Shown here piece after piece: positions 4,921 to 44,222 of a stretch of 52,357 bases of DNA. The notes below the pieces were generated by a model. The model was not told the DNA's origin. It searched no databases and saw only the letters and a program-made list of their open reading frames with translations. Origin of the DNA: an uncultured Bacteroidota bacterium (lineage in GTDB: Bacteria > Bacteroidota > Bacteroidia > Bacteroidales > P3); NCBI GenBank assembly GCA_902771735.1, contig CACXXO010000016.1, positions 1 to 52,357 on the forward strand, given 5' to 3'. The position numbers and the translations under genes were made by a program. Position 1 is the first letter of the stretch; each line of letters starts with the position of its first letter.

Positions 4921-5790
4921 ATGAGTTTGAAAATTGTTGTACTTGCAAAACAAGTTCCTGACACAAGGAACGTTGGCAAGGATGCCATGACGGCAGAGGG
5001 CACGGTGAACCGCGCCGCGTTGCCCGCCATTTTTAATCCCGAAGATTTGAATGCTCTGGAGCAGGCGCTGCGCATCAAGGAGCAGAACCCCGGCACCACC
5101 GTGGGTCTATTGACCATGGGTCCCCCTCGTGCCGGCGAGATTATCCGCGAAGGCCTCTACCGCGGCGCCGACACCGGCTGGCTGCTCACCGACCGTCTCT
5201 TTGCCGGTGCCGACACGCTGGCCACGAGCTATGCCCTCGCCACCGCCATCAAGAAGATTGGCGACGTGGATCTCGTTATCGGCGGCCGTCAGGCCATCGA
5301 CGGCGACACCGCACAGGTGGGTCCCCAAGTAGCCCAGAAGTTGGGACTCAACCAGGTGACCTACGCCGAGGAAATCATTAAGATTGAAAACGGAAAAGCC
5401 ACCATCCGCCGCATGATTGACGGCGGTGTGGAGGTAGTGGAAGCCCCGCTGCCCTTGGTGGTAACCGTCAACGGCAGCGCCGCCGAGTGCCGTCCCGCCA
5501 ATGCCAAGTTGGTGATGAAGTACAAATACGCCGCCTGCCCCCTGGAGGTGGCCGAGGACGACAGCCGCAAAGGCCTCCGCGCCGAGCGCTCCTACCTCAA
5601 CCTCATCCAGTGGAGCGTGGCCGATGTCAACGGAGACCCCAGCCAGTGCGGCATGAGCGGCTCGCCCACCAAGGTCAAAGAGGTGCAAAGCATCGCCTTC
5701 CAAGCCAAGGAGAGCAAGACCCTCACGGCAAAAGACGAGGACATCAATGCCCTCATCCAAGAGCTGCTGAACGATAAGATTATAGGATAA
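4921..5790 (+). CDS. etfB: Electron transfer flavoprotein subunit beta
   Basis: This is the 289-residue beta subunit of ETF, which with EtfA carries electrons from acyl-CoA dehydrogenases via FAD (and AMP or a second FAD). The N-terminus KIVVLAKQVPDTRNVGKDAM and the nucleotide-binding stretch VIGGRQAIDGDTAQVGPQVA (around residues 118-140) are diagnostic of the ETF-beta/FixA family, and the length is slightly over the usual 250-270. The start is ATG 4921; upstream in-frame codons run into the promoter. It heads the order etfB-etfA-acd, so the encoded pair most likely serves the downstream dehydrogenase. Whether this ETF is of the bifurcating type cannot be decided by eye. Confidence 0.93.
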   Translation: MSLKIVVLAKQVPDTRNVGKDAMTAEGTVNRAALPAIFNPEDLNALEQALRIKEQNPGTTVGLLTMGPPRAGEIIREGLYRGADTGWLLTDRLFAGADTLATSYALATAIKKIGDVDLVIGGRQAIDGDTAQVGPQVAQKLGLNQVTYAEEIIKIENGKATIRRMIDGGVEVVEAPLPLVVTVNGSAAECRPANAKLVMKYKYAACPLEVAEDDSRKGLRAERSYLNLIQWSVADVNGDPSQCGMSGSPTKVKEVQSIAFQAKESKTLTAKDEDINALIQELLNDKIIG

Positions 5791-5794
5791 AATG

Positions 5795-6100
5795 GGAGAT
5801 AACGGAAGATAACGGAAGATAAAAGAAGATAATGGAAGATAAAAGAAGATAACGGAAGATAACGGGAGATAGAAGGAGATAACGGGAAATAACGGAAATT
5901 ATGGGAGATAACGGAAGATAACGGAAGATAAGAGGAGATAACGGACAATACCAAAGCATTTGTCACCTATCTCCCGCGAGCGAAGCGAGCTATCTCCTCC
6001 TATCTCCAAAGATTTCCTCCTCTCTCCAAAGACCTCCTCCCTACCTCCAACGAACTCCAACAAACTCCAACGATTCCTCCCCCCTATCTCTCCCCCAAAA
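5795..6100. repeat. Repeat-built spacer between etfB and etfA, foldable into a long hairpin
   Basis: 5795-5949 consists of about 15 degenerate copies of a 10-base unit (GGAAGATAAC). 5968-6100 is pyrimidine-rich with repeated CTATCTCC and CTCCAA units. GGAGATA on the left is complementary to TATCTCC on the right, and the junction GGACAATACC...GCATTTGTC supplies short inverted ends at the tip. A small perfect hairpin, GCGAGCGAAGCGAGC, lies near 5979. No ORF is credible here. An equivalent spacer follows etfA. Confidence 0.8.
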
Positions 6101-6112
6101 TAATAAAGAATT

Positions 6113-7168
6113 ATGAACAACGTTTTTGTATATATAGAGATTGAAGGTACGGAAGTGCGCGAGGTGTCGCAGGAACTTCTGACCAAAGGCCGTAAGCTGG
6201 CGAATGAACTCAGCGTGGAGCTTCACGCCGTAGCCATTGGCACCGGCATCAAGGGCAAAGTCGAGGAGCAAATCCTGCCCTACGGCGTCGACAAACTCTT
6301 CGTCTTCGACGCCCCCGAGCTGTTCCCCTACACCTCGGCTCCCCACACCGACATCGTGGTGAACCTCTTCAAGGAGGAGCAGCCACAGATTTGCCTCATG
6401 GGCGCCACCGTCATCGGCCGCGACCTCGGCCCGCGTGTCTCGTCGAGCCTCACCAGCGGCCTCACGGCCGACTGCACGCAGCTCGAGATTGGCCCCTACG
6501 AGGACAAGAAAAGCGGCAAGGTGTACCAAAACCTGCTCTACCAGATCCGTCCCGCCTTCGGCGGCAACATCGTGGCCACCATCGTCAACCCCGACCATCG
6601 TCCCCAGATGGCCACCGTGCGCAGCGGCGTCATGCAGAAGGCCCTCTATGAGGGTCTCGGCGACTCTAATGGAGCCAAGGCCCTCATAGAATGCCGTAAG
6701 GAAGTGGTATATCCCGAGGTGAAGAAATATGTGAGCCCCGAAGCCTTTGTAGTAAAAGTGCTCGACCACCATGTGGAGGCCGCCAAGCACAACCTCAAGG
6801 GTGCCCCCATCGTCGTCTCCGGCGGCTATGGCGTGGGCAGCAAAGAGGGCTTCGAGATGCTCTTCGAGCTTGCCAAGGTGCTCCACGGCGAAGTGGGTGG
6901 CAGCCGCGCCGCTGTCGACGCAGGCTGGATTGACAACGACCGCCAGATTGGCCAGACGGGCGTCACCGTGCACCCCAAGGTGTACATCGCCTGCGGCATC
7001 AGCGGCCAGATCCAGCACATCGCCGGCATGCAGGACTCGGGCATCATCATCTCCATCAACAGCGACCCCGACGCACCCATCAACAAAATTGCCGACTATG
7101 TCATCACCGGTACCGTCGAGGAAGTCGTCCCCAAGATGATTAAGTATTATAAGCAGAATAGTAAGTAA
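6113..7168 (+). CDS. etfA: Electron transfer flavoprotein subunit alpha
   Basis: This is the 351-residue alpha subunit of ETF, which holds the FAD. The C-terminal FAD domain is clear: VSGGYGVGSKEGFE, GGSRAAVDAGW, then QIGQTGVTVHPKVYIACGIS and GQIQHIAGMQDS followed by INSDPDAPI. The N-terminal domain starts NNVFVYIEIEGTEVREVSQE. The length is at the upper end of the family. The start is ATG 6113, behind the repeat-rich spacer. With etfB and the dehydrogenase at 7597 it forms a three-gene operon for oxidation or reduction of acyl-CoA thioesters. Confidence 0.94.
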   Translation: MNNVFVYIEIEGTEVREVSQELLTKGRKLANELSVELHAVAIGTGIKGKVEEQILPYGVDKLFVFDAPELFPYTSAPHTDIVVNLFKEEQPQICLMGATVIGRDLGPRVSSSLTSGLTADCTQLEIGPYEDKKSGKVYQNLLYQIRPAFGGNIVATIVNPDHRPQMATVRSGVMQKALYEGLGDSNGAKALIECRKEVVYPEVKKYVSPEAFVVKVLDHHVEAAKHNLKGAPIVVSGGYGVGSKEGFEMLFELAKVLHGEVGGSRAAVDAGWIDNDRQIGQTGVTVHPKVYIACGISGQIQHIAGMQDSGIIISINSDPDAPINKIADYVITGTVEEVVPKMIKYYKQNSK

Positions 7169-7173
7169 ATAAA

Positions 7174-7590
7174 AGGGAGATAACGGAAGATAACGGAAGA
7201 TAACGGAAGATAACAGAAGTTAACGGAAGATAATAACGGAAGATAACAGAAGATAACGGACAATAGCAAAAACCTACGGATACAATGCAGACGTCGCGAA
7301 CACATGAAGAATTGTTAGCATGGCAAAAAGCCCATAAATTTGTCGTGCTGGCATATAGTACGATTGCGACATATCCATCATATGAACAATATGGATTATG
7401 CTCACAATTCAGACGTGCAGCTGTATCTATACCCGCCAATATTGCCGAAGGATATAAAAAGATGCCAGCTATTTTCTGAACGCTTACAGCAAGGGTATTG
7501 TGAACAATAACGGCATCAAAGATTAAGCATTTGTCCCCTATCTCCCTTTATCTACTCCTATCTCCTCCTATCTCCCCCCAAAAAACAAAC
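7174..7590. repeat. Repeat-built spacer between etfA and acyl-CoA dehydrogenase, with an insert
   Basis: 7174-7265 holds about nine copies of the same 10-base unit (GGAAGATAAC) seen in the previous spacer, again ending GATAACGGACAATA. 7527-7577 resumes with AGCATTTGTCCCCTATCTCC and further TATCTCC units, the same right-hand side as in the first spacer. Between these half-sites lies a relic S23/IVP gene. So the two spacers are the same element, one without and one with an internal gene. Confidence 0.8.
7285..7526 (+). pseudogene. Deleted S23/IVP four-helix-bundle gene
   Basis: From ATG 7285, about 60 codons read as the N-terminal half of a four-helix-bundle protein of the S23 ribosomal/IVP family (ELLAWQKAHKFVVLAYS, then QFRRAAVSIPANIAEGYKK). 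At about 7464 the frame shifts: reading from 7464 gives ASYFLNAYSKGIVNNNGIKD and a stop at 7526, which looks like the usual C-terminus of the family. The normal protein has about 120 residues, so roughly 40 central residues are missing. IVP proteins are encoded in intervening sequences of 23S rRNA genes and elsewhere; their function is poorly known, although bAvd relatives serve in diversity-generating retroelements. Confidence 0.75.
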
Positions 7591-7596
7591 AAGATT

Positions 7597-9300
7597 ATGG
7601 TAAACTATTATAGCGATCATCCTGAAATAGCATTCCACCTCTCTCATCCCGAGATGAAAAAGGTGGTTGATTTGAGAGAAAAGAATTACGAGGATGCCCA
7701 GAAGGGCATCGACTATGCCCCCGTGGACTTCGAGGACGCGATGGAGAACTACCGCCGCGTGCTGGAAATCACGGGTGACGTGGCCGCCAACACCCTGGCC
7801 GTGAACTCCGAGAGCGTCGACCTCGAGGGTCCGCACCTGGAGAACAACCGCATGGTGTATGCCTCCAAGACCGTCGAGAACCTGCAGCAAACCCGCCTCG
7901 CAGGCCTCTATGGAGTATCGATGCCACGTCGCTACGGCGGACTCAACCTGCCCAACGTCATCTTCTCGATGGCCAGCGAGCTGGTGGCTGCCGCCGATGC
8001 CGGCTTCCAGAACATCTGGAGCCTGCAGAGCTGCATCGACACCCTCTATGAGTTTGGCAGCGAGGAGCAGCGCCAGAAATACATCCCGCGCATCTGCGCC
8101 GGTGAGACCATGAGTATGGACCTCACCGAGCCCGACGCAGGCTCCGACCTGCAGCGCGTGATGCTCAAGGCCACCTTCGACGAGAAGGAGAACTGCTGGC
8201 GTCTGAACGGCGTGAAGCGCTTCATCACCAACGGCGATTCCGACATCCACCTCGTCCTCGCCCGCAGCGAAGAGGGCACCAAGGACGGACGCGGTCTGTC
8301 GATGTTCATCTACGACAAACGCAACGGCGGTGTCGACGTGCGCCACATCGAGCACAAGCTCGGCATCCACGGCAGCCCCACCTGCGAGCTCACCTACAAG
8401 AACGCCAAAGCCGAGCTCTGCGGCGACCGCAAGATGGGCCTCATCAAATATGTGATGGCCCTGATGAACGGCGCCCGTCTGGGTATCGCCGCCCAGAGCG
8501 TGGGTCTGAGCCAGGAAGCCTACAACGAGGGGTTGGCCTATGCCCGCGAGCGCGCCCAGTTCGGCGAGAAGATCATCAAGTTCCCCGCCGTCTACGACAT
8601 GCTCTCGCGCATGAAGGCCAAACTCGACGCCGGCCGCAGCCTGCTCTACCAGACCGCCCGCTATGTGGACCTCTACAAGTGCCTCGAGGACATCCAGCGC
8701 GACCGCAAGCTCACCCCCGAGGAGCGCACCGAGATGAAGATGTACAACCGCTTGGCCGACGCCTTCACCCCCATCGCCAAGGGCATGAACTCCGAGTATG
8801 CCAACCAGAACGCCTACGACGCCATCAGCATCCACGGCGGCAGCGGCTTCATCATGGAATACAAGTGCCAGCGCCTCTACCGCGACGCGCGCATCTTCAG
8901 CATCTACGAAGGCACCACCCAGCTCCAGGTCGTCGCCGCCGTGCGCTACATCACCAACGGCACCTACCTCCAGGTGATGCGCGACATGATGGCCAAGACT
9001 CCCGACTGCGAGCTGAAGAACCGCGTGGCTCCGCTCATAGACCTCTACGAGCAGGCCGTCAAATATGTCAACGACGCCAACAACCAGGAGGTGCACGACT
9101 TCCTGGCCCGCCGCCTGTACGACATGACCTGCGAGATCATCATGAGCCTCCTCATCATCGACGACGCCAGCCGCGCCCCCGAGCTCTTCGAGAAGAGCGC
9201 CAACGTCTACGTCCGCATGACCGAGGAAGATGTCTGTGCCAAGAGCTACTACGTGATGCACTTCACTGAGGCCGACCTGCCCAGCTTCCGCGCCGAGTAA
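7597..9300 (+). CDS. Acyl-CoA dehydrogenase with C-terminal extension
   Basis: This 567-residue FAD enzyme oxidises (or reduces) the alpha-beta bond of acyl-CoA and exchanges electrons with the ETF encoded upstream. Visible motifs are DLTEPDAGSDL (family signature, near residue 175), RERAQFGEKI, GGSGFIMEY, and IYEGTTQLQ near residue 438, whose Glu is the usual catalytic base. A helical C-terminal extension of about 120 residues makes it longer than the 380-residue short-chain enzymes, as in the larger Bacteroidota type. I start it at ATG 7597, since the upstream codons run into the repeat spacer. Chain-length specificity cannot be told. Confidence 0.92.
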   Translation: MVNYYSDHPEIAFHLSHPEMKKVVDLREKNYEDAQKGIDYAPVDFEDAMENYRRVLEITGDVAANTLAVNSESVDLEGPHLENNRMVYASKTVENLQQTRLAGLYGVSMPRRYGGLNLPNVIFSMASELVAAADAGFQNIWSLQSCIDTLYEFGSEEQRQKYIPRICAGETMSMDLTEPDAGSDLQRVMLKATFDEKENCWRLNGVKRFITNGDSDIHLVLARSEEGTKDGRGLSMFIYDKRNGGVDVRHIEHKLGIHGSPTCELTYKNAKAELCGDRKMGLIKYVMALMNGARLGIAAQSVGLSQEAYNEGLAYARERAQFGEKIIKFPAVYDMLSRMKAKLDAGRSLLYQTARYVDLYKCLEDIQRDRKLTPEERTEMKMYNRLADAFTPIAKGMNSEYANQNAYDAISIHGGSGFIMEYKCQRLYRDARIFSIYEGTTQLQVVAAVRYITNGTYLQVMRDMMAKTPDCELKNRVAPLIDLYEQAVKYVNDANNQEVHDFLARRLYDMTCEIIMSLLIIDDASRAPELFEKSANVYVRMTEEDVCAKSYYVMHFTEADLPSFRAE

Positions 9301-10276: not shown

Positions 10277-10365
10277 ATTTCAATAACGCCACAATAACAA
10301 TATTATTGTACACCTCCTGGCGACAGATAGCAGCCAAGTAGGCATCTTACCCCTACCAACTCCCT

Positions 10366-10437
10366 ACCAACTCCCTACCAACTCCTACCGTGGTAGGAGT
10401 TGGTAGGGAGTTGGTTACTGGTTGATAGGTAGTTAGC
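10366..10437 (+). repeat. Oriented palindromic element, copy A
   Basis: Perfect 24-base arms (10366-10389 and 10392-10415) have the core CCTACCAACTCCTACC and a two-base centre GT, followed by the one-sided tail TTACTGGTTGATAGGTAG. The left side has an extra TACCAACTCC unit. It fills most of the gap between trkH and the TonB-like gene. No T-run follows. Confidence 0.9.
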
Positions 10438-23107: not shown

Positions 23108-23182
23108 AGTGCCAAACACCTATCAACCAGTAACCAACGCCCTACCAACTCCTACCACGGTAGGAGTTGGTAGGGCGTTGGT
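23108..23182 (-). repeat. Oriented palindromic element, copy B (reverse orientation)
   Basis: Perfect 24-base arms (23133-23156 and 23159-23182) centre on AC with the CCTACCAACTCCTACC core. The outer arms read ACGCCC/GGGCGT where copy A has ACTCCC/GGGAGT, a paired change. The tail, read on the minus strand, is TTACTGGTTGATAGGTGT, matching copy A. Confidence 0.9.
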
Positions 23183-23238
23183 AGGGTCATCGTAGGTCCT
23201 TCATCCCTACATTATGGATAGGGTCTCTTAACATTTTT

Positions 23239-30562: not shown

Positions 30563-30627
30563 CACAAAAAACCGAAAATATTAAAAACACTCTTACCCCC
30601 AACCTCGTCCCAATACCCTTCCAAAGC

Positions 30628-30683
30628 CCTACCAACCCCCTACCAACTCCTACCGTGGTAGGAGTTGGTAGGGGGTTGGTAGG
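30628..30683. repeat. Palindromic element, copy C
   Basis: Perfect 27-base arms (30628-30654 and 30657-30683) around GT have the usual CCTACCAACTCCTACC core. The outer arm is CCAACCCCC/GGGGGTTGG, again with matching changes on both sides. The tail seen in copies A, B and E is poorly kept here; only ATAACCACC near 30711 resembles it. Confidence 0.9.
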
Positions 30684-30753
30684 TAGATGGTAGGCATCTA
30701 ATACCTTGTATATAACCACCTTATAGCTGTTGGTTGAAAATTTATTATTTTTC

Positions 30754-36956: not shown

Positions 36957-37271
36957 AACTGTTCAGTATAACGGCCAACAACAGAAATTATTTTGTCGGC
37001 CGTTCATAAAAATATTTTCACCCTACCAACACCTACCGTGGTAGGAGTTGGTTAGGAGATGGTAGGGAGTTCATAACTGGTTATCACTTAGTTGGCACAA
37101 AAACGCCATTTACTGATTCCCAAGCGGACAAAGGATGTCGCGGGAGAATGTTTTAATATTTTTTAACATAATACAATGCAATAATAGAAAGAAGGAGTCG
37201 TTATTGGGATAACCCTTTTTAGGTGAAAAAGGTTAAAAAAAGAATATAAACAAATAAACAACAATAAAAAA
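36957..37271. other. Divergent 315-base gap: hairpin, palindromic element, AT-rich leader
   Basis: From the left it holds a hairpin in the M3 peptidase leader (ACGGCC..GGCCGT, 36971-37003), palindromic copy D (annotated separately), and an AT-rich stretch that ends AATAAAAAA before the lipoprotein gene. GTTATTGGGATAACC followed by CTTTTT (37200-37220) is a small terminator-like stem. No ORF is credible. Confidence 0.6.
37021..37099 (+). repeat. Palindromic element, copy D (degenerate), with conserved tail
   Basis: CCCTACCAACACCTACC (37021-37037) and GGTAGGAGTTGG (from 37040) still pair around GT but with mismatches. The tail ACTGGTTATCACTTAGTTGG agrees with that of copy E (GTGGTTATCACATAGTTGG). 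It is the most decayed copy. Confidence 0.75.
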
Positions 37272-44103: not shown

Positions 44104-44128
44104 TACCCCCTAAGCACCCTCGCCCTGC

Positions 44129-44222
44129 CAACACCCTGCCGACTCCCTACCAACTCCTACCATGGTAGGAGTTGGTAGGGAGTCGGCAGGGTGTTGATAG
44201 GTGGTTATCACATAGTTGGCAC
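44129..44222 (+). repeat. Oriented palindromic element, copy E (longest, perfect)
   Basis: Perfect 33-base arms (44129-44161 and 44164-44196, centre AT) carry the CCTACCAACTCCTACC core plus an outer segment with GCCGACTCCC/GGGAGTCGGC, not found in the other copies. The tail GATAGGTGGTTATCACATAG follows to 44222. It sits between two opposed terminators. Confidence 0.93.

Follow-up and report, generated by a model that had tools for sequence, protein, structure and literature searches.

Two spacers of 322 and 428 nt separate three co-directional genes, an etfB-like gene, etfA and an acyl-CoA dehydrogenase gene (acd), in the 52,357-nucleotide contig CACXXO010000016.1 of an uncultured Bacteroidota bacterium; this whole 52-kb contig (G000:C16 in our numbering of genomes and contigs), referred to as the window, comes from a 2.29-Mb genome. 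On balance, we lean towards the view that both spacers represent decayed small mobile elements of a widespread family, which has no visible transposase, resembles the intervening sequences (IVSs) of 23S rRNA and resides in mRNA spacers. A full element of this kind would carry one gene of the S23/intervening-sequence protein (IVP) family in the loop of a hairpin, the stems of which are complementary short-tandem-repeat arrays.

Complementary arrays in two spacers of the etf operon

Both spacers, like all the operon features described here, read on the forward strand and have the same layout: (i) a period-10 array, (ii) a junction of the form GGACAATA…GCATTTGTC and (iii) a complementary CT-rich array. 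Spacer 2 (7169..7596), characterized by its sequence, PF05635, fold and alignment, lies between etfA (6113..7168; PF01012/PF00766), which is flanked by the two elements, and the downstream host gene acd (7597..9300; PF02770/PF00441/PF12186). It comprises eight copies of AGATAACGGA with a period of 10 (7178..7260; Tandem Repeats Finder, TRF), the left junction GGACAATA (7258..7265), common to spacer 1 and to the congener G002, a relic of an S23/IVP four-helix-bundle gene (7285..7526; PF05635, E 1.7e-17; TIGR02436, E 4.5e-16), the right junction GCATTTGTC (7527..7535), which belongs to a repeat family within the window, and about four copies of the CT-rich CCTATCTCCT, again of period 10 (7537..7575; TRF). 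The open reading frame (ORF) 7285-7479 matches positions 1-52 of the 106 in PF05635. Relative to the S23 gene of G002, one block of 139 bp is missing at ~7459, which results in a frameshift, and both ends of the gene are still present between GGACAATA and GCATTTGTC.

Spacer 1 (5791..6112), between the upstream host gene, which is etfB-like (4921..5790; electron transfer flavoprotein domain PF01012, E 5.6e-41), and etfA, contains no gene, and its junction halves are 5 nt apart. Its left arm, 15 copies of AGATAACGGA with a period of 10 (5797..5945; TRF), runs into the core GACAATACCAAAGCATTTGTC with inner inverted ends GACAA/TTGTC (5944..5964, located by pattern search). The right arm (5966..6098, ends set by eye) is made of degenerate CTATCTCC/CTCCAACGA arrays that complement the left arm; TRF reports a CT-rich array with a period of 20 at 5994-6058 and another at 6045-6073. 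The junction pattern is that of the dispersed S23-less mini-elements of congeners described below, and the core of spacer 1 is the sole match to this pattern in its own genome (reversed control, 0).

The right junction AAGCATTTGTC[A/C]CCTATCTCCC is common to both spacers (22 nt, 95%). Among the pairs listed, the arms are complementary at 93% over 15 nt within spacer 1 and at 88% over 16 nt within spacer 2, and the left arm of spacer 1 is 74-89% complementary to the right arm of spacer 2 over 18-43 nt. When the array unit was searched as an 18-mer with at most two mismatches, all 16 matches in the genome fell in these two spacers, the reversed control giving one. TRF and the repeat comparison thus bear out the original prediction, made from the window alone, of a left array, a complementary right array and a common junction in both spacers; the deleted S23/IVP gene that it placed between the half-sites of the second is likewise recovered by PF05635 and by the comparison with G002.

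The same prediction held that both spacers form hairpins. Compared with 100 dinucleotide shuffles each, the RNA fold of spacer 2 has a z of -3.9 and that of the intact G002 element a z of -4.7, no shuffle being as good in either case, so that the claim holds for spacer 2; for spacer 1 it is not significant (z of -1.5, equalled by 5 of the 100 shuffles), the whole hairpin being not clearly beyond composition. Rfam finds no rRNA in the window, its single match there being a tRNA.

Empty and occupied sites in related genomes

Matches to etfA were found in 58 of 61 genomes, and the etf spacers were read at 18 loci of the window's own genus, including the window, with the etfA|acd spacer measurable in 14. 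This spacer is only 2-3 nt long in 10 of the 14, which are empty sites of the kind that the original prediction envisaged in orthologous operons; the other four hold the intact S23 element of G002, the relic of the window and two other inserts. The etfB|etfA spacer measures 0-4 nt at seven of the 18 loci and 29 nt at one, and contains an insert of 69-508 nt at the remaining 10. G002 mirrors the window: its spacer 1 contains an S23-less hairpin, and its spacer 2 (515 nt) a full element of similar unit with S23 intact. The metagenome-assembled genome (MAG) RUG12118 (locus L188) displays the same pairing of an S23-less hairpin with a full S23 element, built on a different unit.

More generally, S23 lies downstream of etfA, recognized by its C-terminal motif, at 10 loci that span the own genus, Phocaeicola, Bacteroides, Paludibacter and other MAGs, the acd start being placed by pattern in nine; these ten came in part from the choice of an etf-site copy as the first query row. 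The arms of etf-site copies pair better with their own partners than across copies (average scores, 24.3 vs 15.5).

Inserts of several kinds occur at the etf junctions. In the etfB|etfA spacer of L031 (G001), another hairpin family, CCTCACCCCC…CCCCTCTCC, encloses a small ORF that we take, from its general appearance, to resemble a DUF559-type endonuclease; this hairpin, which looks like a parallel element carrying its own gene, has a repeat found again at two places of G004 (C2:38403-39371 and 104661-105298). The etfA|acd spacer of L025 (G035) is filled by still another array, ~200 nt of AATCCCGTGGGGAAATTG-type repeats.

S23 genes and array arms across bacteria

PF05635 matches are present in 118 of the 120 genomes of the genus set (own genome included), with up to 18 per genome, and in 85 of 119 order genomes. 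To each S23 locus we assigned an arm score by comparing the 220 nt to the left of the gene with the reverse complement of the 220 nt to its right, with a threshold of 18. The genus, order and phylum sets comprised 30 loci each, the best matches with one per genome (in the genus set, L067 was dropped as too short and the etf copy of G002 added). The score reached at least 18 in 30/30 genus, 24/30 order and 14/30 phylum loci, vs 3.0% of 3600 mismatched left-right pairs and none of 83 flanks taken 500 nt farther out. Among named genomes, the best 80 S23 loci were kept and 79 scored (L211 was dropped): 52 of them scored at least 18 (mismatched pairs, 3.9% of 3160; far flanks, 0/69), including loci of Segatella buccae, Flavobacterium, Parabacteroides, Lyngbya, Nostoc mirabile, Acidobacteria, Planctomycetota, Chloroflexota, Nitrospirota and Brucella pseudintermedia. 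About one third of the named, half of the phylum and one fifth of the order loci remain below the threshold. The second S23-like gene of the window's own genome (L002; G000:C18:21512-21823) is also armless and is open over 161 codons; it is perhaps a domesticated copy. Rfam returned no rRNA match in 14 S23 loci, of which 11 are weakly armed or armless, and no S23 match was found in phage records; plasmids gave 31 records, mostly of cyanobacteria among the genera shown.

The arm units differ between elements (GGAGTGAAA, GAAGTTAA, TAGTGGTC, GTTTACTG, GGCACTA and others). In the 93 of 181 loci with an arm score of at least 20, the best lag is 7-11 nt in 74, with a median identity of 0.68 at that lag vs 0.40 after shuffling, and the left arm is 67% purine. 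Even between different sites, the arm unit tracks the S23 family (Mantel coefficient, 0.31; 0/400 permutations). Stop codons in the left arm (9.7 per 100 nt vs 8.0 shuffled and 5.5 in the right arm) show an enrichment too weak to claim.

In Bacteroidota, S23 nearly always lies in the sense direction between co-directional genes. Neighbour directions were called with a codon model, for which etf, acd and one further gene of the window served as the training set, applied to 60 own-genus rows that correspond, by hand count, to 48 unique loci, 12 of which appear twice. The left neighbour is sense in 60/60 rows, in one of them weakly, and the right neighbour is sense in 53 confidently and in two weakly, antisense in one weakly and missing in four; altogether, both neighbours are sense in 52/60 rows and both antisense in none. 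A rougher composition model applied to 181 loci gave 113 with both sense and again none with both antisense. Of 23 chosen S23 pairs, 11 have a finite dS and a dN/dS of 0.02-0.13, dS being saturated in the remaining 12; the S23 protein is therefore used, under purifying selection. Taken together, orientation and constraint suggest that S23 is kept in Bacteroidota where a host transcript can express it. Its charge is not telling (median isoelectric point of 7.9, net charge of +1).

S23-less copies and possible movement

The S23 protein closest to that of the G002 etf copy (88%) is encoded in G127, where unrelated genes flank the element and its GGGGAGATAAT arms are similar to those of the G002 copy. 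In the tree, this copy is sister to three etf-site rows, the four-row clade having a support of 100 from few columns. S23 elements occur at many gene pairs (21 flank clusters for 61 rows, some of them double; single-linkage clustering, as used here, joined certain unrelated gene pairs and yields no exact site count).

The junction pattern GACAATA-N3-33-CATTTGTC, a stretch too short to hold S23, was found in 30 of 59 genus genomes, own included, and its reverse in none of the 59. Near-identical cores recur within a genome: at 10 sites at most one base apart in G006, at 11 sites of the form GACAATACNNATCATTTGTC in G097 and at nine similar sites in G033 (two G002 places appear twice in the mini-element list). 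With one locus per genome, the arm score is at least 18 in 14/30 mini loci, some of the loci being plainly not array-armed. Of 31 mini-elements with a score of at least 14, eight have both neighbours sense, nine both antisense and two one of each, and 12 are unclear. By eye, eight aligned G097 copies and three printed G033 copies have no common ends outside the arms. The mini-element region of G006, set against six congeners, does not reveal a clean empty site: dispersed repeats take up ~1.9 kb of it, and the corresponding stretch of G036 measures 119 nt.

The window's own genome also contains a palindromic hairpin with period-11 arms, CCAACTCCTACC-NN-GGTAGGAGTTGG, in exactly 50 copies (reversed control, 0), vs 0-2 copies in each of 20 congeners. 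It is a species-specific amplified array hairpin without S23, and five of its sites fall in the window (10351-10429, 23133-23186, 30610-30694, 37021-37071 and 44123-44201), four matching exactly and that at 37021 nearly so.

Several candidate movers and roles were set aside. The Y1 transposase PF01797, and with it Y1 transposases associated with repetitive extragenic palindromes (RAYT), REP/RAYT systems and the IS200/605 group of insertion sequences (IS), is absent from the own genome and from the S23-rich G064, G006 and G108, while present in seven of 16 genomes; this was the transposase family searched. The reverse transcriptase PF00078 is absent from the own genome and from the S23-rich G002, G064, G006 (72% complete) and G118, and present in 4/16. 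A general abundance of array hairpins does not explain the arms: 410 kb of contiguous sequence contain nine inverted repeats scoring at least 24, of which only a part are array-like (the etf spacers score below this threshold). PADLOC assigned none of four S23 proteins of relatives to an anti-phage defence family.

Discussion

S23/IVP is a common protein (157/198 phylum genomes) without a known role, known mostly from rRNA. Tying it to array hairpins in mRNA spacers defines an element with natural empty sites, relics and mini-derivatives, makes the origin of 23S IVSs and the function of S23 directly testable, and would mean that many Bacteroidota operons hold processing hairpins absent from annotation. 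A search of the open-access literature, most subscription papers lying outside it, found no description of such an element, in line with the original prediction. Its proposal of an IVS-like element in an mRNA spacer stands as regards an anatomy seen outside rRNA, which is intact in G002 and general, and proves too narrow otherwise: rather than one stranded IVS, the spacers resemble two decayed relatives within a mobile family that also has S23-less derivatives. The uncoupling of etfB, etfA and acd transcripts that it suggested is a putative consequence.

In the mobile-family reading, spacer 2 would be a full element whose gene broke recently, and spacer 1 an S23-less mini-element. The S23 gene, presumably without its own promoter, would be translated from the transcript of the host operon when the element sits between cistrons, and the arms would form a long double-stranded stem liable to be cut by RNase III, as in 23S rRNA IVSs; the cut would part host cistrons where continuity does not matter, and S23-less copies would spread as well. 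From the anatomy and by analogy with IVSs within rRNA, we think it most likely that the elements are mobile and that their hairpin makes them tolerable between cistrons. At a guess, S23 oligomers may also bind the repeated unit of the stem, the co-variation of unit and S23 family being what points to it; the entries of the solved S23 relatives 2gsc and 2rld each comprise five chains, and a Xanthomonas S23-family protein is described as a homopentamer in excerpts of PMC4990558. A wider proposal, which we put forward only tentatively, is that S23/IVP elements are a pan-bacterial, transposase-free mobile class residing mainly in mRNA spacers, the single gene product of which would be an oligomeric binder of its own array stem and which would shed S23-less hairpins; the IVSs of 23S rRNA would then be copies that landed in other cut-tolerant RNAs, as might the repeat stems in trnL introns of cyanobacteria.

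A number of observations weigh against the mobile-family reading or blur it, among them the copy numbers of S23-less hairpins, the weak correlation of counts and the IS-like ends in G006 that are taken up below with the IS-derived alternative. At etf sites, an arm's own partner is the best of its row in just 4/11 cases, in part because several of these copies share one unit. As to orientation, the composition model gives one antisense neighbour in 14 of the 181 rows, eight of them in the genus, order or phylum sets, and an armed S23 on a Nostoc plasmid lies antisense between two ribonucleotide reductase genes in an operon. A crude longest-ORF caller placed both neighbours antisense in 4/31 genus, 3/30 order and 0/30 phylum rows (25/30 phylum rows were fully sense); we ascribe these calls to spurious antisense ORFs in GC-rich DNA, and the codon model took over because this caller chose long antisense ORFs at GC-rich loci. 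On the tree, the G127 copy may have moved in either direction, or may be an independent insertion. S23 copies at the same sites with saturated dS fit a host-useful gene equally well.

This last point leads to the strongest competing explanation, in which S23 and its hairpin form a long-resident host regulatory cassette (autoregulation of mRNA stability or differential expression of cistrons) that is inherited mainly by vertical descent with recombination and does not move. The low dN/dS with often saturated dS, the S23 gene in the etfA|acd spacer at 10 loci over several genera and the sense orientation of S23 all agree with it, as does the clustering of the ETF label on the S23 tree (5 changes vs 10.5 shuffled). 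We nevertheless deem it unlikely, though worth serious consideration, given the patchy distribution (empty etfA|acd sites at most own-genus loci), the close S23 relative at another locus in G127, the many gene pairs occupied by S23 elements and the S23-less copies dispersed in both orientations.

The array hairpins might alternatively be IS-derived miniature inverted-repeat transposable elements (MITEs) or host repeats, produced by ordinary transposases or slippage, in which S23 merely prefers to sit. Such an origin is suggested by the G006 mini-elements, which have IS-like inverted ends TTCTATTAATT/AATTTATAGAA outside their arms and may be moved by an IS transposase, as well as by copy numbers: the own genome has 50 palindromic array hairpins and no intact armed S23, and G097 (80% complete) has 15 mini matches alongside a single weak S23 match (E 4.8e-13); S23 may therefore not drive the spread. 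Likewise, S23 and mini counts are weakly correlated (Spearman coefficient, 0.29; p 0.03; armless S23 counted too). The original prediction regarded repeats at random sites without an IVP link as telling against it; the arm-S23 linkage is strong, and many S23-less array hairpins exist too. We consider this origin improbable, since the link between arms and S23 extends over several phyla and many different units, the unit tracks the S23 family at different sites, the G097 and G033 copies examined by eye share no outer ends, and Y1 transposases, the family searched, are missing from the three S23-rich genomes named above.

Two simpler readings seem to us barely credible. That a single 23S rRNA IVS strayed once into the etf operon would account for the shared ORF family and the inverted-repeat anatomy, and recalls the heptamer repeats found just before the S23p start codon in the Coxiella rRNA IVS (excerpts of PMC4990558); it is at odds with S23 genes in nearly all genus genomes, armed at many spacers, with the absence of all seven 23S marker oligonucleotides tried (exact match) from each of the 79 named loci, and with the absence of rRNA matches at the loci submitted to Rfam. 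Equally hard to credit is a chance juxtaposition of GA-rich slippage arrays and an unrelated pseudogene: the unconvincing fold of spacer 1 speaks for it, whereas the intact orthologous G002 element, with an identical junction and a similar unit, and the empty far-flank controls speak against it.

Comparison with known systems

With the IVSs of 23S rRNA, represented here by excerpts of PMC4990558, the etf-type elements share an S23/IVP family protein in the loop of a terminal-inverted-repeat stem and a similar size (428 nt in Coxiella vs 515 nt for the G002 spacer); RNase III cleaves the Coxiella IVS, in which heptamer direct repeats adjoin the S23p start. As for a stem, spacer 2 and G002 have one beyond composition, unlike spacer 1. 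The etf-type elements differ in lying in mRNA spacers (between etfA and acd) and not in rRNA, in having arms made of tandem arrays with an element-specific unit, in the dispersal of S23-less copies, and in the purifying selection on S23, the Coxiella ORF being in reductive evolution (same excerpts). The P6b stem-loop of the cyanobacterial trnL intron likewise has 7-nt repeats on both sides of its stem (Nostoc), with repeat classes replaced as whole regions; it lies within a group I intron at one site, is not dispersed, and no S23 gene is mentioned in the excerpts of PMC4476775.

Avd of diversity-generating retroelements is a homologous four-helix bundle (excerpts of PMC10053308), but the Avd model scores four intact relatives at 32.5 to 38.9 bits vs a cut-off of 80 and does not match the window relic, and the reverse transcriptase is absent from five genomes as stated above. 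BrickBuilt, a MITE of Porphyromonas gingivalis, also consists of short dispersed intergenic repeats with a minisatellite; according to excerpts of PMC4596501, it has 23-nt repeats between IS-like terminal repeats and no complementary array pair, and that text mentions neither S23 nor four helix. Short dispersed copies without a transposase are MITE-like in congeners' S23-less elements, the etf type of the own genome being confined to the two spacers, and IS-like terminal repeats are seen in the G006 family only. The intergenic TAACTGA heptamers of Beggiatoaceae, Cyanobacteria and five Bacteroidetes are direct repeats close upstream of start codons, as here, but of one fixed unit (excerpts of PMC4679880); the text of that paper mentions neither S23 nor four helix.

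Minor features of the loci

GC-rich blocks such as CGAAGCG or GCGAGCGAAGCGAGC, the latter identified by its sequence at 5976..5990 in the right arm of spacer 1, break the arms at similar places in the window and in relatives (L027, L023, L188, L196, L293 and L295). To the left of S23 in L063 and L075, the leader of the element harbours nested AACCTCTAAAAAT…TAGAGGT inverted repeats, which are probably small elements of IS origin. Finally, the window's own etfA has 351 codons vs 340 spanned by most own-genus matches, and may carry a short insertion.

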